In this document: one piece after another, positions 35,863 to 51,182 of the stretch
Layout: each line of letters begins with the position of its first letter
Position numbering within the stretch: position 1 is the stretch's first letter
DNA from: Elusimicrobiota bacterium
Lineage (GTDB): Bacteria > Elusimicrobiota > Endomicrobiia > CG1-02-37-114 > XYA2-FULL-39-19
DNA length: 51,391 bases
Direction of reading: 5' to 3'
Assembly (NCBI GenBank): GCA_018816525.1
Contig: JAHIVV010000026.1
Span: 1 to 51,391, forward strand
Position numbers and translations under genes: made by a program
Notes under the pieces: model-generated
Databases searched by the model: none
What the model was told of the DNA's origin: nothing
Seen by the model: the letters and a program-made list of their open reading frames with translations, nothing else

Positions 35863-36906
35863 ATGGAATATAAAGGTAAATTCAAAATATTTAACAATTC
35901 ACAAATAAAAACATATCCTCTGAAACAAAGAAAAAGCAAAGTATCTGTAGGCCTTTTTGTAGATTGTAAAAAACTTGAAAATTCAGAAATAATCCAGCCA
36001 TTAAAAGAAATAGAAAATATCGCGAATGCGGTTGTAGCTGCACGTAAAAATAAAAAACCAATAATTGTAATAACCGGCGCCCATCTTGTAAAAAATGGCC
36101 TTTCTCCTATAATTGTCGATTTGATGAAACGTAATATCATAACACTTTTTGCTACTAACGTGGCATCGGCAATCCACAGTTTTGAACTCTCTTTAATCGG
36201 TGAATCGAGCGAAAATGTAAGGGACGGCCTTAAAAAAGGCGAGTTCGGCATGGCCTTTGAAACAGGAATGTATATAAACCAGGCTTTAATTAAAGGAAAC
36301 AGCATGAAACTTGGTTTTGGCGAAACTATGGGCAGATTGTTTACGGATTCAGTTTTCAGAAAAAGCGTAATTAATGCTGGTGTTAAAGGAAATAAATACA
36401 GGGGTTATTATATGCCGTTAAACGGTTTTAAATATGAGGAAAACTGTATTTTTGCACAGGCAATTAAATTGAATATTCCAGTAACGGTACATGCAAGCAT
36501 TGGGACTGACATTGTAGACCAGCATTGTAATTTTGACGGAGCTGCAAAAGGGGCCACCAGCGCGCGGGATTTTCTTATTTTTGTAAATGAGGTTACAAAA
36601 CTTACACAAGGCGGCGTCATTTTAAATATAAGTTCTGCGGTAATGGGGCCGGAAGTTCTATTGAAAGCAGTTTCAATGGCGGCTAATGTTGGTAAAGCGC
36701 CTAAAAACATAGTAACAGGTGATTTTGATTTGCGCCCGTACGGAAACGAAGATAAAAATGAAGGCAGGTACCACTATTATTTCAGGGACCAGAAAAGCAT
36801 AGTTAAAAGAATACCGGAAGTTTATTCAGGCAAAGGTTATTATATAGAAGGCGATCAGAAAGAAACTATTCCTTCCTTATATCAATACATCCTAAAGCTG
36901 CTATAA
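35863..36906 (+). CDS. Deoxyhypusine-synthase-like protein of unknown function
   Basis: A 347-residue protein whose middle (about 65-135) reads PIIVITGAHLVKNGLSPIIV, then ATNVASAIHSFELSLIGESS, then KGEFGMAFETG. This pattern (GxHLxKxGLxPxxxDLM, ATNxAxxIHxFExxxIGxxS) belongs, as far as I recall, to a bacterial family in the DHS-like NAD/FAD-binding superfamily with no assigned reaction. The end has DFDLRPYGNEDK and YYFRDQKSIVKRIPE. I do not see the Lys-containing GGGxxKHH-type active site of true deoxyhypusine synthase. It begins an operon with an AEC permease 1 base downstream and a class III aminotransferase, which suggests amine or amino-acid metabolism; that is inference. Confidence 0.65.
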   Translation: MEYKGKFKIFNNSQIKTYPLKQRKSKVSVGLFVDCKKLENSEIIQPLKEIENIANAVVAARKNKKPIIVITGAHLVKNGLSPIIVDLMKRNIITLFATNVASAIHSFELSLIGESSENVRDGLKKGEFGMAFETGMYINQALIKGNSMKLGFGETMGRLFTDSVFRKSVINAGVKGNKYRGYYMPLNGFKYEENCIFAQAIKLNIPVTVHASIGTDIVDQHCNFDGAAKGATSARDFLIFVNEVTKLTQGGVILNISSAVMGPEVLLKAVSMAANVGKAPKNIVTGDFDLRPYGNEDKNEGRYHYYFRDQKSIVKRIPEVYSGKGYYIEGDQKETIPSLYQYILKLL

Positions 36907-36907
36907 C

Positions 36908-37831
36908 ATGATATTAATAATAAATATTATTTTCCCCATTTTTGGCGTTATCGGGCTCGGGTACCTGCTTAAAAGAAAAAACTTTCTGACACAGGAAAGT
37001 ATAAACGTTATGAACAGGTTGTTGTATTTTTTCGGTTTGCCTGCGCTTATTTTTTTAAGCATTGTCCAGTTTGAATTTGACAAGGTTTTCAATCTTGCAA
37101 GCGTTACAGGAATAATTATTACTACGGTTTTAACCTGTATTCTAGCCTGGGCCTGCAGCGGTTTTATAAAGATTAATGCGCAAAGGGGCTCATTTATCCT
37201 CGGATGTTTCAGGACCAATATGGCGTATGTCGGGTTTCCTATTATTACCAATTTATATGGTAATTTAGGGCTGGCAAAAGCGGCAATTATTGGAGGAGCA
37301 TTTGCTATTGTTGCTGTTATTTTGTCAGTTATTATCCTTGAATACTACAGGCCGCAAGGCAAACAAGAAAAAAACACATTGAGTTTGCTGAAATCAATAA
37401 TATACAATCCATTAATAGTTTCATCTGTAGCAGGCCTTATTTTCGCGGTATTAGGCATAAAACTTCCTTCTGTTTTTTCCAAATTTCTTGATCTTCTTTC
37501 AAAAATGTCTCTGCCCATGGCCCTGCTTAGCGTTGGCGCATCTATAACTTTTACTTCTATCGTCAACAATTTGAACCTGCAGACTATAATTATATTCGTA
37601 AAGTTGATTTTTATGCCAATTATTGCTTTAATGATTTATACGTTTTTAATTCCAACAACGTTACTGGATTTAAAAATCGGGGTTTTGATCATTGCAATGC
37701 CAACCGCAGTTTCGTCTTTTGTTATGGTTAAAGAAATGGAAGGCGATTATGATATGATGGCTAATACGATTACTTTAACAGCTATTGCGTCGATGTTCAC
37801 TCTCTCGTTCTGGCTGCTAATACTGAAATAA
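36908..37831 (+). CDS. AEC-family permease (auxin efflux carrier family)
   Basis: A 307-residue membrane protein with about ten hydrophobic segments in two halves of five. IFPIFGVIGLGYLLKRKNFL (N-terminus) and the second half starting near LKSIIYNPLIVSSVAGLIFA are typical of bacterial AEC proteins, as is the helix-breaking FRTNMAYVGFPI. Known bacterial members move malonate, malate or other organic anions; the substrate here cannot be read. The ATG lies one base after the stop of the DHS-like gene, so translation is coupled, and both genes likely serve the same metabolite. Confidence 0.85.
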   Translation: MILIINIIFPIFGVIGLGYLLKRKNFLTQESINVMNRLLYFFGLPALIFLSIVQFEFDKVFNLASVTGIIITTVLTCILAWACSGFIKINAQRGSFILGCFRTNMAYVGFPIITNLYGNLGLAKAAIIGGAFAIVAVILSVIILEYYRPQGKQEKNTLSLLKSIIYNPLIVSSVAGLIFAVLGIKLPSVFSKFLDLLSKMSLPMALLSVGASITFTSIVNNLNLQTIIIFVKLIFMPIIALMIYTFLIPTTLLDLKIGVLIIAMPTAVSSFVMVKEMEGDYDMMANTITLTAIASMFTLSFWLLILK

Positions 37832-37889: not shown

Positions 37890-39290
37890 ATGGCAAAAGA
37901 GTACGAATTAAAAGTTAGGAAGATTCAAAAAGTTAAAACACCTTTTAGGAACATGGTAACAAATGAGTTCCCGGTTAAAAAGTCGGTTCAAATCCTAAAA
38001 AAATTGAGAAAATACGAGCCGCGTTCAATGTCCGGCCAGCCGCTGGCGTTATGGGATCGTGCTGCTGGCATCAATGTATTTGATAAATACGGCAATAAAT
38101 GGCTGGATTTTAGCTCCGGAGTACTTGTTGCAAATGCGGGCCACTCAAACCCTGAAATAAAGAAAGCTATAATAAAGCAGACTCAAAAAGGATTATTGCA
38201 CAATTATTGTTTCCCGTCCGAAATAAGAGCAACCCTTATTGAGAAAATTGCAAAATTAGCCCCTTATCCGTTAAAAAAAGTCTTTTTATTGACAACCGGC
38301 GCTGAATCCACCGAAGTTGCAATAAAATTATCCAGAACCTGGGGATTGAAAATAGGCGGGCAAAATAAAATAACCATAGTATCTTTTTCAGGCGCATTTC
38401 ACGGAAGAACCATGGGGTCGCAGATGATCGGCGGCTCACCCGATTTAAAAAAATGGATTGTAAATCTGGATAAAGACATGGTTCAGGCCCCGTTTCCTTA
38501 TTGTTACCGCTGTCCGTGGGGTAAGGATAAATACCAAAATTGCGATGTAGAATGTTTCAATAATTTTGTGAAATTTTTGAAACATAAAAAACTTGACCCT
38601 GCAAAAAATATCGCAGGAGTTATTTCAGAAACTTACCAGGGCGGAAATGCTACATTCATGCCAAAAAAGTTCGCCCAACTGCTAAGAGCTTTCTGCAATA
38701 AGAGCAAAGCATTACTTGTTTTTGATGAAGTTCAGGCTGGTTTTGGCAGAACCGGCAAAATGTTTGGTTTTCAACACTACGATATTGTCCCTGATATAGC
38801 TTGTTGCGGCAAAGGAATATCAAGTTCCCTTCCTCTATCAGCAGTTATAGGGAGACCGGACATAATGGATATGTATGAGCCCAATACGATGACCAGCACC
38901 CACACCGGCAATCCGGTTTGTTCTGTTGCTGCTATAGCTAATATTGACTATTTGGTAAAACACAAATTAGCCGAAAATGCCGCAAAAATCGGAAAATACT
39001 TAGAAAAAGAATTACTTAAGCTTGTGGAAAAATATCCTGATGTAATGGGATGCGCTCAGGGTAAAGGGCTTGTTTATACTTTACATGTAGTCAAATCCGG
39101 AACCAAAGATCCTGATGGAGATTTGGCTCATGATATTGTAGGCAGATGCGTAGAAAAAGGATTGATGCTGTTTTCCCCGGTAGGTACAGGAAGCGCTTCA
39201 ATAAAACTTACACCGCCTTTGACAATAAATGAAACAGCGTTGAAAGACGGTATAAAAGCGCTGGATGAAGCTATTGCAGACTTAATATAA
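37890..39290 (+). CDS. Class III aminotransferase with a four-cysteine insert
   Basis: A PLP-dependent enzyme of the 4-aminobutyrate/ornithine/acetylornithine group, 466 residues. FSSGVLVANAGHSNPE, TTGAESTEVAIKLSRTW, SFSGAFHGRTMGS, DEVQAGFGRTGKMF (279-292) and the Schiff-base K308 (CCGKGISSSLPLSAV) are all in place. C205, C208, C218 and C222 form a CxxC-x9-CxxxC motif in an extra loop, which could bind zinc or a cluster. Substrate is not resolved. AGGAGG sits ideally before the ATG at 37890. It closes the plus-strand operon and is followed by a strong terminator. Confidence 0.88.
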   Translation: MAKEYELKVRKIQKVKTPFRNMVTNEFPVKKSVQILKKLRKYEPRSMSGQPLALWDRAAGINVFDKYGNKWLDFSSGVLVANAGHSNPEIKKAIIKQTQKGLLHNYCFPSEIRATLIEKIAKLAPYPLKKVFLLTTGAESTEVAIKLSRTWGLKIGGQNKITIVSFSGAFHGRTMGSQMIGGSPDLKKWIVNLDKDMVQAPFPYCYRCPWGKDKYQNCDVECFNNFVKFLKHKKLDPAKNIAGVISETYQGGNATFMPKKFAQLLRAFCNKSKALLVFDEVQAGFGRTGKMFGFQHYDIVPDIACCGKGISSSLPLSAVIGRPDIMDMYEPNTMTSTHTGNPVCSVAAIANIDYLVKHKLAENAAKIGKYLEKELLKLVEKYPDVMGCAQGKGLVYTLHVVKSGTKDPDGDLAHDIVGRCVEKGLMLFSPVGTGSASIKLTPPLTINETALKDGIKALDEAIADLI

Positions 39291-39311: not shown

Positions 39312-39345
39312 AAAAAAAGCTCCAGTTTTGACTGGAGCTTTTTAT
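39312..39345. terminator. Bidirectional intrinsic terminator between convergent units
   Basis: AGCTCCAGT (39318-39326), loop TTTG, ACTGGAGCT (39331-39339), flanked by A-run and T-run on both sides so the stem extends through A-T pairs. It lies 22 bases after the aminotransferase stop and 24 bases after the transketolase stop on the other strand, ending both units. Confidence 0.93.
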
Positions 39346-39368: not shown

Positions 39369-41405
39369 TTATTTCTTTTTTTGTATCAAAAGTTTCCTTG
39401 CTTTTTCAACAAAGTATTCAGCGGTCAAACCGAACAGTTTCATTAATTCCCAGGGCTGGCCCGAGTCGCCGAACTTATCTTCAACACCGATCATATCCAT
39501 CAACAAAGGTGATTTAAATTTTTTGTTGCGTGCGATAGCTCCTGCGACAATATTCCCCAAACCGCCGACTTGATGTTCCTCAGCAGTAATTACAACACCT
39601 GTTTCTTGCGCCGCTTTAAGTATTGACTTCGTATCAAGAGGTTTAATTGTATGGATATTTAATATCCTGGTTTCAATCTTAAACTGTTCTTTCAATATCC
39701 ATGCAGCTCTCATTGCTTCCGGAACCATCGGGCCGCAAGCTATTATCGTAAGCCGCTCTTTTTCAGATTTATAATTTGTCGCAAGTTTTGTTTCAAAAGC
39801 GTCTATAAATTTTTCTTTTACACCTCTGAATCTGATAACATTTGCAACTCCAAATTTATAGGGGGTGTCTGTTTTTGTTACCATCGGAGTTGCTTCCCTT
39901 GCATATCTGATACAAGCAGGGCCTTTAACTTTTGTAACCGCTTGCGTAGCTTTTTCTGTCTCCATTGAATCGCAGGGAACTACCATGGTCATATTCGGCA
40001 AGTAAGCCATGAGCGCAATTTCTTCAAGAGCCTGGTGAGTTGCACCATCGGAACCGACTGAAATTCCCCCGTGCGCTGATGCGATTTTAACATTTAAGTT
40101 GTTATAACAAAGAGTGGTCCTGATCTGATCCCAGTTTCTTCCTGTGACAAACACTCCGTAGGAACCGATAAAAGAAGTTTTTCCTTCCTTTGCAAAACCG
40201 GCTGCTACAACCGTCATATTTTGTTCGGCTATACCCATGCTGAAAAACCTGTTTTTTCTTTCCGGGTGGTTATTATAAAACTCATCCATTTTTATTGAAG
40301 ACGTTATATCCGACCCATGAGCAATAACATTTTTGTCTTCACCTATTTTTTCAAGGGCTCTGCCGAATCCGAATCTGGTGGGTTCCATGTCAACTTTCAT
40401 AACGGCAGGGTCTGAATTCCACCAGTAATTCTTTTTGAATTTCGGGACCATGGCGTCAACTTTTTTTACCACTTTTTTATGATATTCTTCAACCGAACTA
40501 AAAATCTGGTCCAATCTTTCTTTAGGGAATTTATCAGCTATACCGATGTTTTTTAACGCTGTTTCAAGCGATTCATCACCGCATCTTCCGTGTTTTGGCG
40601 GGACTCCGTGGTATCCTACGACATTTTCCGCGTAAGAAATACATTTCCCTTTAATAGTGTTGAATATTATCACTGTGGGCATGCCTTTTACGGTCTTTGC
40701 CAGTTCAAATGCGTCAACTATCTTTTGCATGTCATGGCCGTCAGTAACAATTACGTTCCAGCCGAAAGACCTGTATTTATCTTCCAGCGGCTCAACATTC
40801 ATGACTTGCGCGACAGGCCCGTCTATCTGGAGTTTATTTCTGTCAATTATGCCTAATAGGTTGTCCAGGTTATAGTGCGCAGCTGACATGGCTGCTTCCC
40901 ACACAGAACCTTCCTGCTGTTCGCCGTCACCCATAATGCAATACACCCTGTAATCTTTATTTTCGAGTTTTGCGTTTAAAGCGCTGCCGACAGACACGCC
41001 AAGCCCCTGGCCCAGGGATCCGCTCGAAATTTCTATACCGGGAAGTTTAAATCTGTTAGGATGTCCTTCAAAACCCGACCAAAGTTTTCTTAATTTTGCT
41101 GTTTCTTCAATATTGTAATAACCTGCGGCTCCAAGCGAAACATAAAGCGCAGGAGCTTTGTGGCCTGCTGACCAGAAAGCCCTGTCTCTGTCAGCCCAAT
41201 CAGGGTTTTCAGGATCGTGTTTCATTACTTTTAAATATAACGCGGCAGAAATATCCATGATTGACATGGTCCCGCCGGTATGGCCGGATTTTGCCAAGGT
41301 AATGCCTATCATGTTCCAGGCACGCATTTCTTTTGTTTTCTCAACCAATTCATGGATTGTGTAGTCTTTTCTTAGCTTGCCTGTCTTCGAATTCATCAAT
41401 GCCAT
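39369..41405 (-). CDS. tkt: Transketolase
   Basis: A thiamine-diphosphate enzyme moving two-carbon units between sugar phosphates. The 678 residues carry the TPP motif GDGEQQEGSVWEAAMSAAHY with the distal NKLQ, the N-terminal SGHTGG, SSGSLGQGLGVSVG, and a C-terminal pyrimidine domain with GIAEQNMTVVAAGFA and HGGISVGSDGATHQALE. Its style resembles the archaeal/bacterial split two-subunit enzymes, here as a single chain. It is last in the sugar operon, close downstream of a TIM-barrel isomerase, so it may process the operon's own sugar product. 1-deoxy-xylulose-phosphate synthase is less likely given the motif set. Confidence 0.92.
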   Translation of the reverse strand: MALMNSKTGKLRKDYTIHELVEKTKEMRAWNMIGITLAKSGHTGGTMSIMDISAALYLKVMKHDPENPDWADRDRAFWSAGHKAPALYVSLGAAGYYNIEETAKLRKLWSGFEGHPNRFKLPGIEISSGSLGQGLGVSVGSALNAKLENKDYRVYCIMGDGEQQEGSVWEAAMSAAHYNLDNLLGIIDRNKLQIDGPVAQVMNVEPLEDKYRSFGWNVIVTDGHDMQKIVDAFELAKTVKGMPTVIIFNTIKGKCISYAENVVGYHGVPPKHGRCGDESLETALKNIGIADKFPKERLDQIFSSVEEYHKKVVKKVDAMVPKFKKNYWWNSDPAVMKVDMEPTRFGFGRALEKIGEDKNVIAHGSDITSSIKMDEFYNNHPERKNRFFSMGIAEQNMTVVAAGFAKEGKTSFIGSYGVFVTGRNWDQIRTTLCYNNLNVKIASAHGGISVGSDGATHQALEEIALMAYLPNMTMVVPCDSMETEKATQAVTKVKGPACIRYAREATPMVTKTDTPYKFGVANVIRFRGVKEKFIDAFETKLATNYKSEKERLTIIACGPMVPEAMRAAWILKEQFKIETRILNIHTIKPLDTKSILKAAQETGVVITAEEHQVGGLGNIVAGAIARNKKFKSPLLMDMIGVEDKFGDSGQPWELMKLFGLTAEYFVEKARKLLIQKKK

Positions 41406-41421
41406 TTTTTAATTCTCCTTT

Positions 41422-42339
41422 TTAAACTCTGTTCCAGGCTTCCCTTAGAACTCTTTTTGAGTTAGCTATAAGAACTTCCGGGTTTTCTCCGGGAAGCGGT
41501 TTGACCTCAAAACTTACTATTGGAAGATTGTCTGTTTTTTTGCCCAAATACCCGACATCAAATAAACATTTGAGGAAATCCGTCAGTTCTTTTACCCCGT
41601 TTTCACCTGTTGAAATACCAAATCTTGGGTGCTGGTCGCCGTATCCCGGAGCGTTTTTGTCTTTCATTATAGCATTGCCCATGTGCGCGTGGACTAAGTA
41701 ATCTTTTACCGCGGAAAGAGATTGCTTGGGTGTTTCGTACAACAACGGCATATGACTTAAATCAACCATAAGCCCGAAATTTTTGCATTCTTTTCTTACT
41801 TCTTTCGCAATTTTAGCTGCTTCATCGGAAGGGCCGATCAGAGATTTTTTATCTATGTCGCGGTCAAAGGTTTCAAGTACGAAATTAAGATTTTTTGTAG
41901 CCGCATATTTAGAAAGTTCAATTAACGACGAAATAAGGGCTTTTTTAGCTTCTTCCCTCTTTTCCGGGCCCGGGTCTGCTCCGCTTAAAATTGCCACTGC
42001 TTTTGCTCCCAATTCTTCGGCCTCATTAATTCTTTCTTTGAGAAAATCAACAACTTTTTTTCTTTCAACCGGATCAATCGAGTTTACATTATACTTGTTT
42101 ATCAGAAGCGTCGGCTGGGCTCCGTAAGCAACAGTAAGATGACTTTGTTCAAGCATAGCCCTAGCTTTTTTTCTGATTTCTGGGTCTTTCATCCAGGAAA
42201 CTTCAACAGCCGAGAAAAAGTCGTCTTCGCAAATTTTTTGAAGAGTTTCAAGTATCGGGCCTTCGCCTTTCATCGTTTCCGGGTAAATCATAAAATGGAT
42301 TATCCCGACTTTCATGTAATCATGAATTGAATCTTTCAT
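41422..42339 (-). CDS. Sugar phosphate isomerase/epimerase (xylose-isomerase-like TIM barrel)
   Basis: A 305-residue AP-endonuclease-2/IolE-type TIM barrel. Candidate metal ligands are in FVLETFDRD (Glu), LMVDLSHMP (Asp, His), VHAHMGNA (His) and VSFEVKPLPGE (Glu). This set fits metal-dependent keto-sugar epimerases and isomerases. GGAGG precedes the ATG at 42339, so I keep that start rather than the Met at codon 9. It lies between the UxaE-like gene and transketolase and likely acts on the same sugar. Specific reaction unknown. Confidence 0.8.
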   Translation of the reverse strand: MKDSIHDYMKVGIIHFMIYPETMKGEGPILETLQKICEDDFFSAVEVSWMKDPEIRKKARAMLEQSHLTVAYGAQPTLLINKYNVNSIDPVERKKVVDFLKERINEAEELGAKAVAILSGADPGPEKREEAKKALISSLIELSKYAATKNLNFVLETFDRDIDKKSLIGPSDEAAKIAKEVRKECKNFGLMVDLSHMPLLYETPKQSLSAVKDYLVHAHMGNAIMKDKNAPGYGDQHPRFGISTGENGVKELTDFLKCLFDVGYLGKKTDNLPIVSFEVKPLPGENPEVLIANSKRVLREAWNRV

Positions 42340-42372
42340 TTTGAACCTCCAGAACAGTGATCCCGTTACCCT

Positions 42373-43527
42373 TTAAAGGACAAAACATGGATCCACGTGC
42401 AATTTAATATGTTTTTTAAACACTTCATAATGCTCGTCAGAATGGTTTTTAAGGGCTTCGAAACATCCGTTAAAAAATCTATCTACAGTCAGTATGGAGC
42501 CGTAAGTTACGTGAAGCAACTGACGCAAGTCGCCATTGCCTGTTTTGGTGTCCAATAAAGCAAAAATATCCTCGCCTTTGAGCTTTGATATTTCAGGGAT
42601 ATTTTTAGTATTCGTGGATAATTCATAACTGGCGCGGTCTTTTTCAAATTGTTTCATCGATATTGCGTAAATTTCTTTAAAAAGGTCCGGGTTATGTTTT
42701 GCGACTATTCTCAACTCTTCCAGGTAATAAGTACCCGCTGATTTCAAATGGTAATTATTCTTTGTGTGTTTTGCAAGAATTGGGTATATGGAAAATTTGT
42801 CGCTGCCTGAATGAACGCAAAGCCTTACCCCGTATTTGTTGAGAATTTTGAGTATTTCAATCAGGTATCTCTCAAATTCGACTGTGTTTTTGTCATCCCT
42901 TTTTTCCAGATAATAGTCTATGGCTTTCTCAAAAAATCCCGGGAATCTGGGGGCAAGTTCATCAACTTTTATTTTTCTTTTTTTCAATTCTTCCAGGGCG
43001 AATATGACTTCGTCGAATTTTGTCGTATATTCAGTCTCGTCAAACGAAACTTCAACTGTGAAATCCTTTCCTTTCTTCAATTCAGCAGTCAGGTTTATAA
43101 GTTTTGTTAATTGTTCTACCGCTTCTTTTATGCTCTTTTTAAGCTCATTTGAAACATCATAAGTGAAATGTGTGCATCCGCCTGCAACTGCGGCTTTAAT
43201 ATGTTCCTCGGTTTTCAGGTGGTCTCCATCAGCTGACCAGGGGATCGTAAGATTTGCCTCCTGGGATGAGTAGGCGCCAAGGTCAATCACGTTTTCGTAA
43301 GTCCTGCCGGTCCTTTCAAGTTCCCTTGCTGACTGTTGCGCAAGAACAACCTGAATTCCCAGCTCTTTGGCTACTTTGGCTTGAATTACATTGCCCAGGC
43401 CGTAAGCGCATCTGTAGCCGACTCCGAACACAAAACCGTTTCTTATAACACTGGGATTTGTGTGCGGGTATTTTTTACGCAGTTTTACTGCTTTTTCATG
43501 AGTAATAGGATTATTGCTGCTGTTCAA
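42373..43527 (-). CDS. UxaE-like (tagaturonate/ketose epimerase family) protein, TTG start
   Basis: A 384-residue protein with LAQQSARELERTGRTYENV (62-80), SADGDHLKTEEHI (98-110) and VHSGSDKFSIYP (238-249), which I recognise as hallmarks of the UxaE family that epimerises tagaturonate to fructuronate using a metal. The start is TTG at 43525-43527: AGGAG lies 6-10 bases upstream, inside the last codons of the preceding gene, and no suitable ATG is nearby. The frames overlap by 17 bases. Others in this operon (transketolase, transaldolase-like) suggest a different ketose or ketose phosphate may be the substrate. Confidence 0.72.
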   Translation of the reverse strand: MNSSNNPITHEKAVKLRKKYPHTNPSVIRNGFVFGVGYRCAYGLGNVIQAKVAKELGIQVVLAQQSARELERTGRTYENVIDLGAYSSQEANLTIPWSADGDHLKTEEHIKAAVAGGCTHFTYDVSNELKKSIKEAVEQLTKLINLTAELKKGKDFTVEVSFDETEYTTKFDEVIFALEELKKRKIKVDELAPRFPGFFEKAIDYYLEKRDDKNTVEFERYLIEILKILNKYGVRLCVHSGSDKFSIYPILAKHTKNNYHLKSAGTYYLEELRIVAKHNPDLFKEIYAISMKQFEKDRASYELSTNTKNIPEISKLKGEDIFALLDTKTGNGDLRQLLHVTYGSILTVDRFFNGCFEALKNHSDEHYEVFKKHIKLHVDPCFVL

Positions 43528-45556
43528 GTTCTTCTCCTAATAGGTTAAAATCACCGATAAACCCGGTTCTGACTGCATCCTTTTCCTGTTCTGTTGTAGG
43601 AAATTTGTCTACAACTTTTGCGAATAAGGTTTGCTGCGCAAATGCGTGGGATGCAAGCTGGTCGGTTGTAATGCCTTTTGTACCATATTCTTTTTTGTAG
43701 AGCTTAAAGTAAGAAAGCACTTCTTTAAGCGCTTCATCAACTTCATAAGATTGCGCGAACTCTTGGGCAATCACGGAACTGTAAAGCTGGGCAATCATGT
43801 TTTTGCTTACGGGCTTTTCAATGTTTTTTTGATTTGCTTTAAAGGTTTTCCAGTTTTCTATCTGTAAAGCGCAGTCAGGAAAATGCCCCTGTGAAAACAT
43901 TCCCAGTAATTGTTCAACGTGCGGGAATCTTTCTCCGTATGGAGGCCTCATGGATGCCTGCAAATCTCCGGTTTCCCATGCTTCCAGGCCCTGTTTTTTC
44001 AGAACCGGCGATTTTTTCAAGCCTGTCATGATTTTATGCGAACGTTTTGAAATGGCTTCAGCTATCGTGCAAATTGCCAGGTCCTGTGGAAAAAGCTTAC
44101 CCTGGTATTTATAGTATTCTGAAGGTTTTATTTCTTCAGGTAATATAAATCCTGCTTCCTTTGCTAATAACCTTACTTCAGGGGCATCCAGTGTGCCGTT
44201 TTTCTTATTATCTATCATACCTGCTTCATCGGCTTTTAATTGGTTGTTTTGTTTCTTAAACGCATTGACAAGTTTCTGTATAGCGTACCATCTTAATGCG
44301 GCTTCAACACGCCCGCCCATTTTTGTGATTATTGAATGGGTTATAAGAAAATGTTTCTTTCTTGCTTTTGCGTGCCCGCGGGTTTGGCAGAAAAATGACC
44401 ATAAACCGTCGGTTACAAAACCGGCTACGGTTACGTTGCAATTTGCACCTTCTGCAATTACCTGTTCCATCGCGCTTCCCGAATCGCCTTCGGCAAGATT
44501 GAAGTTGCCTTTCTTTACCTGTTCCACAAGAAGTTTATCTATATCGCCGTATACCCCTTTACTGGAGCCATCAACTTTATAGAAAACATGCGACTGGCCT
44601 TTGCGCGCTTTGATTTCGTCAGGCGTCATTGTCTCTTCAAGAAAAAGCCCTGAATCATAATTCATGCATTCCTGGTTAAATTCTTTGTGGAGTGTTAATA
44701 TATCGCTTTTAAGCTTTTCAGGCTGGTTATAAGTCCTGGGATTTACCTGAAAACTGATTTTTCCTTTTTCTGTAAGAAGAAATACTGCCCTCTCGGACAA
44801 TCTTGCCTTGTAGCCGGCAATTTTTGTAGCTCCGCGTACAAGTTCTTCTCTTGAGAGTTTCCCTTTGTTAGCAAGGGCGAATTTTCTTTTCATCGCCTGA
44901 AGTTCGTCATCTTCGGCCAGCGCCAGGCGGGCCAACGTGGGGTTCATCATTACAAGGTTTGCGCCCCAGAGAACTCTTGCTTCCATGATACCTAAACCAT
45001 AATCTACACCGATTATGATATCCGTTTTCTCTTTTATTTTTCTTAAATTTGATTTTTTACCGAAATCAGCCCAGAAAGTTATCCAGCTTTTTACTGAATC
45101 CGTGCCGATTTCTTTGGATTTCTCAGCCATAAGGCCTTTTCCAGCCGTGGTCATGATTTTTGAAAGGCGTGTTTTTTCTTTATTGAGCAACCCTGACATG
45201 ATTTCTTTATTTTCTGATTCGAATTTTTCAAGAAAGGATGCAAGGTTTTTTACTTCCTTTTTTAGTGTTTTATCGCTGACTATGTTTTTTTTATGCCTTT
45301 TTACGTTCTGAAGGTTTAGTTTTAATTCACAGGATCCGTTTAAAGCTATAGTTACCCAGATAAGAAGATTAAAAATCTTTTCTTTCTCTTCAGTTGAGCA
45401 GTTATTAATTGTTTTTGAAAAACCGTCCTGCAGTTCTTTTATATTTGCGGAAAAATTCTTGGGATTTGTAAAGCAGGTAATATTGTCAAATGCCTGCGCT
45501 TGCGACATTAAATCGCCTTTTGCCTGTTTGATAATCTTTTCAACTTTACTATCCAT
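43511..45556 (-). CDS. Very large transaldolase-like protein
   Basis: A 681-residue cytoplasmic protein, twice the usual transaldolase size (220-380). Its middle carries in the right order the landmarks of the family: GANLVMMNPTLARLA (198-212; compare VTTNPSLL), GKISFQVNPRTYNQ (265-278; compare RVSxEVDPR), FYKVDGSSKGVYG (325-337) with K327 at the Schiff-base position, and EGANCNVTVAGFV (369-381; compare EGINxNVTLLFS). About 180 residues precede this core and roughly 230 follow it. I assign fold and likely chemistry, not substrate. It follows the MalG-type permease by 123 bases with AGGAGC before the ATG, and overlaps the UxaE-like gene. Co-occurrence with transketolase supports a pentose-phosphate-type role. 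Confidence 0.6.
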   Translation of the reverse strand: MDSKVEKIIKQAKGDLMSQAQAFDNITCFTNPKNFSANIKELQDGFSKTINNCSTEEKEKIFNLLIWVTIALNGSCELKLNLQNVKRHKKNIVSDKTLKKEVKNLASFLEKFESENKEIMSGLLNKEKTRLSKIMTTAGKGLMAEKSKEIGTDSVKSWITFWADFGKKSNLRKIKEKTDIIIGVDYGLGIMEARVLWGANLVMMNPTLARLALAEDDELQAMKRKFALANKGKLSREELVRGATKIAGYKARLSERAVFLLTEKGKISFQVNPRTYNQPEKLKSDILTLHKEFNQECMNYDSGLFLEETMTPDEIKARKGQSHVFYKVDGSSKGVYGDIDKLLVEQVKKGNFNLAEGDSGSAMEQVIAEGANCNVTVAGFVTDGLWSFFCQTRGHAKARKKHFLITHSIITKMGGRVEAALRWYAIQKLVNAFKKQNNQLKADEAGMIDNKKNGTLDAPEVRLLAKEAGFILPEEIKPSEYYKYQGKLFPQDLAICTIAEAISKRSHKIMTGLKKSPVLKKQGLEAWETGDLQASMRPPYGERFPHVEQLLGMFSQGHFPDCALQIENWKTFKANQKNIEKPVSKNMIAQLYSSVIAQEFAQSYEVDEALKEVLSYFKLYKKEYGTKGITTDQLASHAFAQQTLFAKVVDKFPTTEQEKDAVRTGFIGDFNLLGEELEQQQ

Positions 45557-45679
45557 TTTTTTGCTCCTTTTTTTGATAGGAAAATCTTGTTTGGTTGGGG
45601 TTTCCTTAAATTTTAAAACAGCCTAAATTTTACTATTTTATTGTTTTTTTAAAAAATATTTAAATTCGGATTTTTCCGT

Positions 45680-47545
45680 CTATTTAAATACCGGTATTAT
45701 TATGCCTCTTAATATCACCTTTTGCATAAATATAAACAAAATTAAAGGCGGAACGGCAGAAATAATAAGCGCTGCGCTTACAACAAAACGCGGCGCCCAG
45801 CTCTGTAATTCAAACAGCCACACCATCAAGGTCCACATATTCGGATCCTGGCAGACAACAAGCGCCCAAGTCCAGGAACCGTACATTGCCGTAAAAGCGC
45901 TAAGCACAGTTACTGCCAATATAGGTTTGCACAATGGGAACGTGATTTTCCTGAAAATCCATAACTCACTTGCTCCTTCGATTACGGCGCTGTCATAAAA
46001 ATCCATGGGCAAACTGTCAAAAAACCCTTTAAGCAGGAATATGGAATAACCGGCGGCAGCGCCCGGCAGCAATATCGCTATGTAAGTATTCAGTAATCCT
46101 AACTGTTTAGTCAATAAAAATCCGGGAATATCGGTAACTTCAGCCGGAAAAGCCATAGTTACGAGCATTAAAAGCAGTATAGTGTAACTACTTTTTAATT
46201 TAAATCTTGAAAGCGCGTAGGCCGCCAGCGGATTAACCGTTATGGAAAGCAGAATAAAACACACGCATACGAATATGGTATTGGTCAAGGCCCTTCCGTG
46301 AATCAAAACCAGGCCGAAAACTTCACGGTAGTTTTTGGTAACCATGGTCCATCTGATCTTAAATTTGTTTTCCTGAACTTCTTTCCAATCAAACTGCGGC
46401 AAAAAGGGTGTAATCTGCGAAAAACTGTTATACTGCATTTGATAAGCCGCGTTTAAACTTTCTATAGAGTGATACTTATTTTTAAGGAATTCCTTGTATT
46501 TAAATTCACCTGAAGTCAGCCTGATGTTGCTTATCGGAACAACCTTTTCAATAAATTCAATGTAATGAATAAGCCTCAGCCCGTGATAGGGAATTTTCTC
46601 CGGTAAAACAACATCCGCATAACTTTTGTAATTAGTCCCATAATCCTGGTTCAAAATCTTGAGATCATTTCCATATTTTGATTTTACAAAATTCCTATAC
46701 GACGAATTAACATCAGATATAAAGGAAATATACCAGATGGGGATAACCTTTTCGACAAAATCCTTCCAATACTTAGCTTCTTTGGGATTGGAAGGCAGCG
46801 TTTGATTTAAAGTTAACTCTAAAAATGATTTATACTTTGTGCCCCACTCATTATTCAGCTTGTCAATTTTGCCGTACCTGACCCTCAAAAACCTCTGAAA
46901 CTTGCCTTCCATCGCAATGACCTGGAAATATTGATCAGGGAGCTCCTTTTTGAAATCACAGTAATCCCTGTACCTGATATCTTCAATCGGGAAATATTCT
47001 CTAATGAACCACCGTTCCGGCGCAATATTTGCGGCGTCCATCCAACCGGGGAATTTTTCATTTAACAGCAAATTGTAACTGTTTAAAGATTTGTATTTTT
47101 TCTTGAGAAAACCAATATAGGAAAAATTGACTGCGGGCGTTAAACCGTTTTTTGCATAAGAATGGCCCAGAAGCAAATATTCCGTCGGCAGCGTTTTTTT
47201 AAATTCCTGCCAGTCCTTGAATACGGCATCCGATTTAATGGGGGCTGTAACCGGCTGGATATCCTTGAATTTTATATATTCAGTCCGCATAACATCATTA
47301 TAGTTATCCATGGTTTCCCAATATTTAGAACAAACGTATTTCTGGTATAAAGCTTTGTCCTGATACAAATATTTGGGTAAAACAGTAAGATCTTCCACAT
47401 CAACAGGGCTTGAAATAGACCAGGAAACAACCAGCAATAAAGGATAAATCATTGAGATTGATCCCAATATAAGGAGAGTGTATATTACGGCAAGCACAAC
47501 TTTTCTTTCAACGCTGTTTTTTGCTACGCTGGTGTATAAAGACAT
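45680..47545 (-). CDS. MalG-type ABC sugar permease with a large repeat-bearing extracytoplasmic insert
   Basis: A 621-residue permease; standard MalG homologues have about 280. Residues 1-42 hold the first membrane helix. Residues about 45-400 are inserted before the next helix and should lie outside the membrane. The typical permease core resumes at about 410 (TNTIFVCVCFILLSITVNPL) with the EAA-type loop SAVIEGASELWIFRKITFP (519-537). The insert has about five repeats of 65-70 residues (starting near 66, 142, 215, 281 and 349) with the pattern Y..F(L/V)..KY....LN..Y.T.Y.SF....LP, then IP..YI. The repeats recall the Y..FL..KYG..LN..WGT.Y.SF segments seen in some glycoside hydrolases. It is 12 bases downstream of the fused SBP-permease. 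Confidence 0.85.
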   Translation of the reverse strand: MSLYTSVAKNSVERKVVLAVIYTLLILGSISMIYPLLLVVSWSISSPVDVEDLTVLPKYLYQDKALYQKYVCSKYWETMDNYNDVMRTEYIKFKDIQPVTAPIKSDAVFKDWQEFKKTLPTEYLLLGHSYAKNGLTPAVNFSYIGFLKKKYKSLNSYNLLLNEKFPGWMDAANIAPERWFIREYFPIEDIRYRDYCDFKKELPDQYFQVIAMEGKFQRFLRVRYGKIDKLNNEWGTKYKSFLELTLNQTLPSNPKEAKYWKDFVEKVIPIWYISFISDVNSSYRNFVKSKYGNDLKILNQDYGTNYKSYADVVLPEKIPYHGLRLIHYIEFIEKVVPISNIRLTSGEFKYKEFLKNKYHSIESLNAAYQMQYNSFSQITPFLPQFDWKEVQENKFKIRWTMVTKNYREVFGLVLIHGRALTNTIFVCVCFILLSITVNPLAAYALSRFKLKSSYTILLLMLVTMAFPAEVTDIPGFLLTKQLGLLNTYIAILLPGAAAGYSIFLLKGFFDSLPMDFYDSAVIEGASELWIFRKITFPLCKPILAVTVLSAFTAMYGSWTWALVVCQDPNMWTLMVWLFELQSWAPRFVVSAALIISAVPPLILFIFMQKVILRGIIIPVFK

Positions 47546-47557
47546 TTTTTTACCCTT

Positions 47558-49927
47558 TTAATCTCCGCCTCTTCTGAATTCTGCGTTTTTCAAAACACGA
47601 AGTTGGAAATATGTGAAACCGATTAATAACGAGCCCATTATCCAGGCCATGCTGGTCGCATAGCCGAATTTAAGATACATATATGCATTTTCCCAAATGT
47701 TTAAACCTAATACTTTAGTCACATTAGCCGGGCCGCCTCCCGTCATGGCCATTACCTGCGCGAACGCATGCATGGAGCCGATAAAGGTTCCGACAAAACT
47801 TATTATTATCAATGGTGCTAAAAACGGAATAGTTATGTACCTTAATTTGTGTATAACACCACAGCCGTCAAGCTCAGCGGCTTCGTACATGTCCGTGGGG
47901 ATTGTTTTTAATGCCGCCTGGAAAATCAAACTGGCCGCGCCGACACGCGCCCAAACTGAAGGAAACACTACGCATATCATGGCTATATTTGGATCATCAA
48001 GCCACCTCATGGGTTCCTTGACTATTTGACATGAAAGTAAAACTCTATTTAACAACCCCGCTTCAGTAGGATCATACAACTGCTTCCATAATACCATTAC
48101 CATCAGGCCAGTTATTACAGCAGGCAGATAAAACACCGTCCTAAAAAACACTTTGCCTATTTTTATCTCATCTACCATAATGGCGAATATTATCGGTATG
48201 ATGAATCCCAGGCCGATATACCAGAATGAATACTCGAAAGTATGCAAGGTAGATTCCCAGAACAAACGCGTAAAAATTACATTACGAAAATTTTCCAAAC
48301 CTATAAATTTGCTGGGAAGCACAAGGTTATAATCCTGAAAACCCATCAGTATTCCCCTGAGAAGCGGATAATAGGCCCAGATAAGTATCAATGATACCGC
48401 AGGAGCCAGCATGAGTATCGGAAGAGAATAATACGCAAGGGTTTTTTTATGCACAGCAGCCTCTCCCTTGTTTCCTGCGACTTTAGTAAAATTACCGATT
48501 ATTCTGCTTAGAAAAAAAGTTAGCAGAACTCCTGCAATTACTACTATTATCCAGGTTACTACGCTTCTTTTGTGTGTTTCTTCCTTGGACAGATACCCCA
48601 GCATCTTCTCTTCAGTAATTTTTACGGCTTCATCCAGCAAACCTTTTATATCCGCTTTCTCGCTCATGACTGACGATTCTACAGCCGGGCCCATATAGGA
48701 ATAAATCAAGTCGCAGTTTTTACCATAGGGCTCGGGCTTGCCGTTTGCCAGCGACTCATCAAGCGCCTCTTCCCATCCGGGAGGTATCTGCCAAAGGTAG
48801 CGTTCAAAACCGAATTTTCTTAAATATTTCGGGTTCAGCATTTTGGCGTAGCCGTTTTCTACCAATACCTTAACCTTTATTTTTTTTGCTTCGTCGCTTG
48901 CCATATATTTTACATATTCCCAGGCTGCATCCCGGGTTGCCTTATCTTTAATGGTTGCGTTTATGCCAAGCATTGATGCATTGATTTCGCTTATACCTTT
49001 TCCTATCGGGCCCTTGGGAACCGGAGCTATACCTATTAATTCAGGATCAACCGTTGATATAACGGTTTCAGTAAGATAATTGAAAATCATGCTTACACGT
49101 TCGTCTATCCAATCAGCATACATAGTAGAGCCGAAGTTGCATACTCCCCTGTATTCTTTGCCGCCTCTGGTCCATTTTCCGGCAATAAGTTTCTGGTAAT
49201 ATTTCAGTGCTGTTACAGCTTCCGGGCTGTTAAATACCGCATGCCAGTCGCCTTTCTCATCCTGAATAACAGCTTCCCCGCCTGCGGACCATAAAAATGT
49301 CATAAACTGCCAGGCAGCGATACTACCGCCGGATAAACCTAACCCGGTGCGCCTCTTTTCCGGAATATACAATTTCTTTGCATCTTCGTAGAGTTCATCC
49401 CAATCCTTCGGGGGCCCTTCAATTCCGGCTTCCTTGAAATGATCTTTTCTGTACATCAGTACCATAACTTCGGTTTCATAAGGTATGCACCAATAATGCC
49501 CGTATCTTTTTACTACCGGTAAAATTGCAGGATGAATTACATTTTCAATTTTTATATTATCTTTCTTTTCCCATTCCTTTATATAATTATCCAAAGGATA
49601 GAGAAAACCTTGGGTAATAAACGATTCTGATTTGCGGAAATTTATATACATAACATCAGGAGCATTGCCGCCCGCCATGGCGAGAAGCTGTCCTGCGTCA
49701 AAACTATCGCTTCCGGGAATTACAAGTAGTTTTGTGCCGGTGAGCAAAATATCAGGATGGAGTTGTTTAAAACGTTCAATTAGGACGTAATTAACTTTTT
49801 CGGTAATATTCCTGCCCCACCGGTTTGGCAGCTGCCAGAGATGCAGGGTAACCTTATTGTCTTTAGGGAAGCTTTGGGAAGCTGTGCAAAATAAAAAGAG
49901 GGCGAGTAAGGCGAATTTTTTTCTCAT
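47558..49927 (-). CDS. Solute-binding protein fused to a MalF-type ABC permease
   Basis: One 789-residue chain holding two parts of a sugar ABC importer. A signal peptide or signal anchor (1-22) is followed by a family 1 solute-binding domain to about 440 (VTLHLWQLPNRWGRN, GNAPDVMYINF, FMTFLWSAGGEAV, DAAWEYVKYMAS). A membrane helix (about 456-474) leads into a MalF-type permease (about 495-789) with KKTLAYYSLPILMLAPA and EAA loop EAAELDGCGVIHKLRYITIP (682-701). The frame is continuous, so this is not a simple sequencing artefact of two adjacent genes. Tethering the binding domain removes the need for a free periplasmic protein. The ATPase must come from elsewhere. Confidence 0.9.
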   Translation of the reverse strand: MRKKFALLALFLFCTASQSFPKDNKVTLHLWQLPNRWGRNITEKVNYVLIERFKQLHPDILLTGTKLLVIPGSDSFDAGQLLAMAGGNAPDVMYINFRKSESFITQGFLYPLDNYIKEWEKKDNIKIENVIHPAILPVVKRYGHYWCIPYETEVMVLMYRKDHFKEAGIEGPPKDWDELYEDAKKLYIPEKRRTGLGLSGGSIAAWQFMTFLWSAGGEAVIQDEKGDWHAVFNSPEAVTALKYYQKLIAGKWTRGGKEYRGVCNFGSTMYADWIDERVSMIFNYLTETVISTVDPELIGIAPVPKGPIGKGISEINASMLGINATIKDKATRDAAWEYVKYMASDEAKKIKVKVLVENGYAKMLNPKYLRKFGFERYLWQIPPGWEEALDESLANGKPEPYGKNCDLIYSYMGPAVESSVMSEKADIKGLLDEAVKITEEKMLGYLSKEETHKRSVVTWIIVVIAGVLLTFFLSRIIGNFTKVAGNKGEAAVHKKTLAYYSLPILMLAPAVSLILIWAYYPLLRGILMGFQDYNLVLPSKFIGLENFRNVIFTRLFWESTLHTFEYSFWYIGLGFIIPIIFAIMVDEIKIGKVFFRTVFYLPAVITGLMVMVLWKQLYDPTEAGLLNRVLLSCQIVKEPMRWLDDPNIAMICVVFPSVWARVGAASLIFQAALKTIPTDMYEAAELDGCGVIHKLRYITIPFLAPLIIISFVGTFIGSMHAFAQVMAMTGGGPANVTKVLGLNIWENAYMYLKFGYATSMAWIMGSLLIGFTYFQLRVLKNAEFRRGGD

Positions 49928-49945
49928 ATTTATAAAGTGTTCTTT

Positions 49946-49974
49946 AATTTAATAAATAATTTGCAAAATGTCAA
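49946..49974 (-). promoter_or_regulatory. Promoter of the sugar uptake/catabolism operon
   Basis: On the minus strand TTGACA (49969-49974), 17 bases, TAAATT (49946-49951). The ATG at 49927 follows after a leader of about 11 bases with no obvious Shine-Dalgarno. An inverted repeat lies immediately upstream of the -35. Confidence 0.6.
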
Positions 49975-50014: not shown

Positions 50015-50371
50015 TTATCCAAAAATCATATAGAGCGCAATCGCAAGGAGTGTTGATCCGAAAATTTTTTTGATAAAAAGAGGTGGAAGAAATACGGCAA
50101 GTTTACTACCGACAAATCCTCCAATAAAGAAACCTGCGCATATTAATGCTGCGGCAGTAAGGTTTACGTATCCCCCTTTGTAATATGTCCAAGCAGCAAG
50201 TAATCCTATCGGGGGAATCATTAATGCGAGCGTTGTACCTTGCGCCGATAGCTGACTGAATCCAAATCCATAGATCAATGCGGGTATAATTATAACGCCT
50301 CCGCCGATTCCTATCATACCGCTAATTGCGCCTGCAAACAGTCCAAGCAATATATACAATATCACTATCAT
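50015..50371 (-). CDS. Half-size TSUP (TauE/SafE) family permease
   Basis: 118 residues with four hydrophobic segments. ISGMIGIGGGVIIIPALIYG (16-35, quoted in 20) is the TSUP signature normally repeated in the second half of 250-residue members; only one half is here. Residues GFFIGGFVGSKLAVFLPP match the end of a TSUP half. GGGAGG lies about 10 bases before the ATG. Half-size members may act as homodimers; the substrate is often a sulfur oxyanion or organosulfonate but not readable here. It follows the NifX-type gene by 107 bases. Confidence 0.8.
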   Translation of the reverse strand: MIVILYILLGLFAGAISGMIGIGGGVIIIPALIYGFGFSQLSAQGTTLALMIPPIGLLAAWTYYKGGYVNLTAAALICAGFFIGGFVGSKLAVFLPPLFIKKIFGSTLLAIALYMIFG

Positions 50372-50445
50372 TTTGTCATTGCCTCCCTATCAATAGATTT
50401 TACTCATCCCAAAATGGTTAGAGGGTGCTACTATGTCTACTTCTC

Positions 50446-50460
50446 GAACGACTATCGTTC
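50446..50460. repeat. Perfect inverted repeat in the gap between the TSUP and NifX-type genes
   Basis: GAACGA (50446-50451), CTA, TCGTTC (50455-50460). In this 107-base gap it could be an operator or a small mRNA hairpin; no U-run follows on the minus strand, so a terminator is unlikely. Confidence 0.45.
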
Positions 50461-50478
50461 TCTATTTTTACCCTGCGT

Positions 50479-50844
50479 TTAATGGCAACTGTGCTGCGCG
50501 CAGGCATTTTCTATCGTTATTTCCTCGAGCTTTCCTTTAGTAAACTGGCTGGCAATGCTGTCTACTGTCCCGGCAACAGCCCTATAGGCTTTAATTCCGC
50601 CTTCATTTAGTTTTTGAACTGCTCTGCCTCCCATTCCGCCGCAGGCTACCGCATCTATCTTCTTCCCTGTTAATAAACCCATCGGCTGACACATACCATG
50701 AGAATGATGCTGATTTGAATTATCAATTATTTCAACCGTATCTTTCTCGATATCATAAACTGTAAAAAATGGTGCACTGCCGAAATGCCCGTAAACCTGC
50801 GCGTTTTTACCTTCTTTCGTTTCTGTAGGTATACATATTCTCAT
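50479..50844 (-). CDS. Dinitrogenase iron-molybdenum cofactor domain (NifX/NifB-type) protein
   Basis: A 121-residue single-domain protein. I start at ATG 50844 because GGGAGG lies about 8 bases upstream and the protein then begins MRICIPTETKEG; a start 33 bases earlier would read through the upstream gene. VYGHFGSAPFFTVYDIEKD, ACGGMGGRAVQKLNEGGI and a His/Cys tail (CAQHSCH) fit the NifX/NafY-like family that carries metal clusters. In anaerobes without nitrogenase such proteins commonly sit beside DUF134 genes, as here, and their role is unclear. No nif genes are visible. Confidence 0.88.
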   Translation of the reverse strand: MRICIPTETKEGKNAQVYGHFGSAPFFTVYDIEKDTVEIIDNSNQHHSHGMCQPMGLLTGKKIDAVACGGMGGRAVQKLNEGGIKAYRAVAGTVDSIASQFTKGKLEEITIENACAQHSCH

Positions 50845-50864
50845 ACAATTATCCTCCCTAGGTT

Positions 50865-51182
50865 TTATTTGCCGCACATCCGATACTTCCGCATCATTTT
50901 TACTGCGCCTCCTTCAATTCTTAGCGCTTTAGCATTTACTATCGCATCAGCTATTTTTTTATGAGCCAACATAATAATGTTTCCAAAGGTTTGTCTTGAT
51001 ATCCTCATCTTTTTCGCAGCTTCTTCCTGATAGAGTCCTTCAAGGTCAGCCAATCTTATGGCTTCAAACTCATCAATGGTTAAAACTATTTCATCTAAAA
51101 CCGAAAGAGGAATGCCTCTCGGCTTAAAATAATCTGCCTGTGGATTGCCGCAAACACGCCTGCATTTACATGGCCGGGACAT
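50865..51182 (-). CDS. DUF134/UPF0251 family predicted DNA-binding regulator
   Basis: A 105-residue protein with a Cys-containing N-terminus (RPCKCRRVCGNPQADYFKPRG) and a helix-turn-helix: LTIDEFEAIRLADLEGLYQE, then AAKKMRISRQTFGNII. The pattern SRPxxxRxV and DExEAIRLxDxxgLxQeeAA is typical of DUF134. AAGGA precedes the ATG. Its promoter carries a 24-base palindrome over the -10 box, so it probably represses itself and the downstream NifX-type gene. The Cys cluster may sense metal or redox; this is inference. Confidence 0.9.
   Translation of the reverse strand: MSRPCKCRRVCGNPQADYFKPRGIPLSVLDEIVLTIDEFEAIRLADLEGLYQEEAAKKMRISRQTFGNIIMLAHKKIADAIVNAKALRIEGGAVKMMRKYRMCGK

Follow-up and report, generated by a model that had tools for sequence, protein, structure and literature searches.

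Background

In Thermotoga maritima, the UxaR regulon comprises gnd, uxaE, uxaD, gntE and gntK together with the importer aguEFG (PMC3750489). The gluconate 2-epimerase of this type of route has also been described (PMC7583248). A literature search for UxaE in combination with an epimerase and a transketolase found no description of the gene set reported here.

This set lies in a stretch of DNA of 51,391 nucleotides, referred to below as the window, which is contig C26 of the genome of an Elusimicrobiota bacterium (G000; 1.6 Mb in 93 contigs, 98.6% complete), a groundwater bacterium with a small genome. Its nearest relatives among the genomes compared are Elusimicrobia bacterium RIFOXYB2_FULL_48_7 (G238), which is of the same genus and whose assembly is 79% complete, and Elusimicrobia bacterium RIFOXYA2_FULL_39_19 (G239), which is of the same family. 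An earlier note on this DNA had joined six genes of the window into one operon for the uptake and catabolism of a sugar or sugar acid. We propose that the locus is probably made up of two units, a four-gene cytoplasmic sugar module that would feed the non-oxidative pentose-phosphate pool, and a neighbouring CUT1-type importer.

Gene content and organization of the locus

The six genes lie in a row on the reverse strand, and gene calling together with Pfam and NCBIfam searches confirmed their content, order and coordinates as given in the earlier note. In the order of reading, they encode a substrate-binding protein fused to a MalF-type permease (47558..49927; SBP_bac_1, E 1.9e-39; BPD_transp_1, E 1e-6), a MalG-type permease in which a loop of about 370 residues carries repeats (45680..47545; BPD_transp_1, E 4.5e-11; PF02449, E 1.6e-9), a 681-residue protein that we provisionally call transaldolase-like (TAL-like) after a weak TAL_FSA match in its core only (43511..45556), a short UxaE-like epimerase of 384 residues (42373..43527; PF16257, 307 bits against a cutoff of 27.1), an AP_endonuc_2 TIM-barrel sugar isomerase/epimerase of 305 residues (41422..42339; PF01261, E 1.2e-20) and a transketolase of 678 residues (39369..41405). 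The last four genes are referred to as the core. A class III aminotransferase gene on the forward strand (37890..39290; PF00202, E 9e-85) is convergent with the core.

The genes are indeed close packed or overlapping: 12 bp separate the fused importer gene from the permease gene, the TAL-like and UxaE-like genes overlap by 17 bp, and the two spacings that follow, on either side of the TIM-barrel gene, are 33 bp and 16 bp. The only real gap among the six genes, 123 bp at 45557-45679, lies between the permease and TAL-like genes. The terminator noted earlier at 39312-39345 was also recovered, as a strong intrinsic terminator on the reverse strand at 39314-39343, 3' of the transketolase gene and between the convergent genes; with its 13-pair stem and T run, it ranks first among 22 terminator-like sites of the region. 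The promoter that had been placed at 49946-49974 matches the consensus at 10 of 12 positions, but the region does not hold more matches of this type than shuffled sequence does (24 observed versus 33.4 expected), so that it cannot serve as evidence. An Rfam search found no element between positions 37000 and 51391 of the window, and a comparison of codon usage between core and importer was uninformative.

At 50015-51182 the window carries a separate upstream group encoding a DUF134-like regulator, a NifX/FeMo-co domain protein and a TauE/SafE protein that is short, its 118 residues being about half the family length. The nearby TauE gene prompted us to consider sulfo-transketolase and sulfo-transaldolase routes, which were set aside, as we saw no sulfoquinovose-specific gene among the neighbours. 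On the other side, at 35863-36906, is a gene for a deoxyhypusine-synthase-like (DHS-like) or ArgZ-C-like protein with a weak PF21570 match, which is kept beside the aminotransferase gene in G239.

Conservation of the locus in related genomes

With the 681-residue protein as a marker of the locus, 394 genomes were searched, 341 of the phylum and 53 from outside it. The protein was found in three (the window genome, G238 and G239) and is 79-81% identical between the window and the two relatives. The gene order in G239 (locus L013) is TAL-like, UxaE-like, a 168-residue protein, TIM barrel, a cyclophilin-like protein, transketolase and convergent aminotransferase, and that in G238 (locus L017) is TAL-like, a 140-residue protein, TIM barrel, transketolase and aminotransferase. 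The UxaE gene is missing in G238, where an assembly gap of 13 N's stands at the end of the TAL-like gene, in the place that UxaE would occupy. The four enzymes are a real, conserved and lineage-restricted group, as seen in a small comparison of three genomes, one of them without UxaE. A neighbourhood search had been suggested in the earlier note, with scattered homologues as the sign of an accidental grouping; the enzyme genes do not show that sign, as they occur together (all four in G239, and three in G238 beside the gap), and at these loci the importer is absent.

Both L013 and L017 have the homologous aminotransferase gene in the corresponding position, which makes it a neighbour of the core in three genomes. 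Synteny between the window and G239 extends further downstream of the core, over the DHS-like gene, a response regulator and an epimerase. The small proteins encoded between core genes of the two relatives (L013:12194-12700 and L017:4029-4451) are related, have no Pfam match and are absent from the window.

Directly upstream of the core, synteny stops. G238 and G239 carry genes there that we named by eye as encoding an MGMT-like protein, a lytic transglycosylase and UvrC, and inspection of both neighbourhoods found no importer at the core locus. The importer pair of G239 is on another contig (L078), with 42% and 41% identity to that of the window (the latter for the repeat-bearing permease), and its neighbours are sulfatase genes (two by Pfam and a third by eye) and a gene for a melibiase-like protein. 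The window genome itself has a second fusion of a substrate-binding protein to a MalF-type permease (L104:3856-6294, contig C24), 71% identical to that of the window, which adjoins a GFO/IDH/MocA oxidoreductase gene and has neither the repeat-bearing permease nor the core beside it. Since both relatives lack it at the core locus and its homologues sit elsewhere, the importer looks like a movable neighbour rather than a constant member of the enzyme group; it appears to have come to lie upstream of the core in this lineage, later than the core. The operon of the earlier note is therefore supported as a conserved group of four enzymes but not as one transcription unit enclosing the importer, and we rejected a single six-gene operon as the ancestral arrangement on the synteny in the two relatives. 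A recently gained importer could still be co-transcribed and functionally linked with the core.

The importer

In CUT1 systems, it is ordinary for the ATPase to be absent from the importer locus. The genome encodes every part of a CUT1 ABC importer, from the substrate-binding protein and the two permeases to an ATPase of the UgpC type. The binding domain precedes the MalF-type permease in one fused polypeptide, and a gene of its own encodes the MalG-type partner; EAA-type motifs were recognized by eye in the permeases. The earlier note had made a point of the lack of an ABC ATPase. None is encoded at the locus, but two UgpC-family ATPases are encoded elsewhere in the genome, one of them near a ROK glucokinase-family gene; these explain the absence, and the argument from a missing ATPase was rejected.

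The loop of the MalG-type permease (46310-47422) sits between TM1 and TM2. The repeats that had been noted in it are real: there are five, at residues 67, 143, 216, 283 and 350, each of roughly 67-76 residues, and they resemble a segment of GH42 (PF02449, about E 1e-9). The permease homologue of G239 keeps the repeat loop at 34% identity. In an AlphaFold2 model of low confidence (pLDDT 42) the loop is drawn as helical hairpins. The system is best read as a glycan importer of the CUT1 type whose binding domain is tethered and whose energy probably comes from a UgpC-type ATPase shared with other importers, and the tethered domain and large repeat loop make it a separate curiosity.

The UxaE-like and TIM-barrel enzymes

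Full-length UxaE proteins have about 475-520 residues, including N-terminal and internal segments, and, relative to the long form, the shorter window protein is missing about 64 residues at the N-terminus and about 57 internally. It matches tagaturonate/fructuronate epimerases in the PDB (9lhw, E 8e-63) and keeps the UxaE motifs AQQS-RE-RT, D-DH and HSGSDKFS. Short UxaE forms a single clade with a support of 1.0, containing the window protein and proteins or fragments of G239, which is of the same family, and of G339, G340, G236 and G378. Outside this family, the neighbourhoods that could be read are those of G339, G340 and G378, in which short UxaE is near AP_endonuc_2 barrels and GFO/IDH/MocA or alcohol dehydrogenases; the fragment in G378 is also accompanied by Gnd, LarA-family and PFK genes, which is the classical set in part. 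The short UxaE of G236 (L016:4547-5026) is a fragment with an internal TAA among unrelated genes and is apparently a decayed copy. In the out-of-phylum genome G341 (L075:3322-12063), a long UxaE gene adjoins a transketolase gene in a cluster that also encodes an SDR, Gnd, a LarA-family protein and a phosphofructokinase-like protein and that resembles the Thermotoga galacturonate route. UxaC (PF02614) has no match in G000 and is present in G238 and G239.

The TIM barrel was aligned with D-tagatose 3-epimerase (8xix), and the presumed metal ligands E, D and H are conserved. It reaches no NCBIfam equivalog cutoff.

The 681-residue protein

At full length, the 681-residue protein has no significant match in Pfam or NCBIfam and no match among PDB sequences. 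Its central 275 residues match only TAL_FSA (PF00923), at E 0.035 and 13.9 bits against a cutoff of 27, and this match is common to two of the three homologues; the label "transaldolase-like" of the earlier note is thus not established. Using hhalign, the protein was aligned in matching register with a segment of TalB (E 2.3e-4, calculated for one comparison; probability of 45%), and in Smith-Waterman comparisons with TalB two of the three members scored above all 500 shuffles and the third did not. Transaldolase profiles built here do not rank the protein above decoys, and its AlphaFold2 model has a mean pLDDT of 40. Residues D185, N205, Q270, K327 and T376 were placed by eye at TalB D17, N35, E96, K132 and T156, of which only T376 falls within the alignment computed by hhalign; in this placement K327, set against K132, would be the Schiff-base lysine. 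No distant homologues were found in plasmids, viral contigs or the 53 out-of-phylum genomes, the genome contigs being scanned with two heptapeptide patterns that are sensitive to close relatives only. Taken as sequence comparison, this is suggestive of kinship with transaldolases and gives a lead only. The protein and its pairing with short UxaE are the main novelty of the locus.

The transketolase and its pentose-phosphate context

The transketolase passes the equivalog model NF004559 with 606.6 bits (cutoff 488). In an alignment with E. coli TktA it is invariant at H26, H66, D155, N185, H261, R358, S385, E411, H461, H473 and R520 (TktA numbering), among which we take H26, H66, E411 and H473 to be catalytic and R358, S385, H461 and R520 to bind the sugar phosphate; judged by this alignment, the active site is intact. 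Profile searches of G000 detected no other PF00456-type gene besides one weak match (E 2e-5), and no match to Gnd (PF00393), which is also absent from four relatives of its order, G238 and G239 lacking it too. A separate Rpe gene and a separate small transaldolase gene are present, so that a second transaldolase is not needed. With a sole transketolase, no Gnd, and Rpe and a small transaldolase in place, the core transketolase is likely a housekeeping enzyme in G000. It need not be one in G238 and G239, since these also carry split transketolase genes. As the only transketolase detected in G000, the enzyme fits a place in central pentose-phosphate metabolism better than one in a dedicated catabolic branch.

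Proposed function and alternative explanations

In the four-gene module, the two epimerase-type enzymes would most likely change the configuration at C3 and C4 of a ketose or a ketose-phosphate. Together with the TAL-like protein, the transketolase would move two-carbon and perhaps three-carbon units into the pool of xylulose-5-P, erythrose-4-P and fructose-6-P, and the TAL-like protein may be a divergent class I (Schiff-base) transaldolase or aldolase. As no Gnd and no other transketolase were found, the module would carry the non-oxidative pentose-phosphate traffic of the genome. A bolder form of this proposal, which we put forward tentatively and think somewhat unlikely, is that the 681-residue protein represents a new lineage-restricted family of Schiff-base aldolases/transaldolases which, together with the C4 epimerase of short UxaE type, the TIM barrel of C3-epimerase type and the sole transketolase, makes up an undescribed variant of the non-oxidative pentose-phosphate pathway that takes in epimeric ketoses.

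A single operon would also suit six consecutive same-strand genes whose spacings never exceed 123 bp and which end in one strong terminator; a keto-sugar, uronate or oligosaccharide would then enter through the fused importer and be broken down by the four enzymes to pentose-phosphate intermediates. In its favour, uxaE of Thermotoga is co-regulated with an ABC importer (PMC3750489). We consider a single operon unlikely, as neither relative has the importer at the core locus, homologues of the importer elsewhere lie beside sulfatases (L078) or a MocA dehydrogenase (L104), the promoter match is no better than chance and G000 has no UxaC. The suggestion of the earlier note that a uronate is imported, epimerised and split has likewise lost ground, with no UxaC as the upstream isomerase, no Gnd and an importer that is not conserved with the core. 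It is also quite improbable that the locus is a variant of the UxaE hexuronate route of T. maritima, leading from tagaturonate through fructuronate and gluconate to the pentose-phosphate pathway. The UxaE domain is unmistakable, the G341 and G378 clusters with Gnd and LarA-family genes resemble the Thermotoga gnd-uxaE-uxaD-gntE-gntK set (PMC3750489), and UxaC does occur in G238 and G239. However, with neither UxaC nor Gnd matched in G000 the known Thermotoga-type route would not be available there, Gnd is missing from G238 and G239 as well, the window UxaE is a short form in a separate clade, and the core has no SDR or LarA-family gene.

The 681-residue protein could instead belong to a new family with no relation to transaldolases, and the quartet could act outside the pentose-phosphate network, for instance in the synthesis of an unusual sugar. 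The lack of a significant family match, the placing of the protein among decoys by our transaldolase profiles and the conserved neighbouring aminotransferase are all consistent with this. We nevertheless regard it as rather doubtful, given that TAL_FSA is the only Pfam match of the protein core, that two of the three members surpass every shuffle against TalB, though the third does not, and that hhalign matches the same C-terminal motif. We retain as probable a core that feeds the non-oxidative pentose-phosphate pool, with the importer as a separate neighbour. If the core works as proposed, it would provide an example of pentose metabolism by way of unusual epimerases, without a detectable 6-phosphogluconate dehydrogenase, and a new protein family for enzymology. 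UxaE-type C4 epimerases are, moreover, sought for rare-sugar production.

Comparison with known systems

As in the UxaR regulon of T. maritima, a UxaE-family epimerase gene here adjoins an ABC importer, and the Thermotoga system feeds the pentose-phosphate pathway, as is proposed for the core. Unlike that regulon, the locus has a short UxaE in a genome without Gnd or UxaC, its importer is not conserved with the core, and a transketolase, a TIM barrel and the 681-residue protein are found instead. The non-oxidative pentose-phosphate pathway is matched by a bona fide transketolase, the sole copy found, and by a possible transaldolase-like partner; it differs in that the transketolase gene is linked here to two epimerase-type enzymes, and the TAL-like protein, roughly double the length of TalB (317 residues), has no significant family assignment and occurs in a genome with a separate small transaldolase. 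The importer resembles the CUT1 systems MalEFGK and UgpBAEC in its substrate-binding protein, two permeases and UgpC-type ATPase, but here the binding protein forms the front part of a fusion with the MalF-type permease, the MalG-type partner has its loop of about 370 residues, and the ATPase is encoded elsewhere. Covalent linkage of a substrate-binding domain to the translocator is also known from GlnPQ (PMC8025302); that system takes up amino acids and has its domains in tandem, whereas the domain tethered here is a sugar-binding domain of the CUT1 type.
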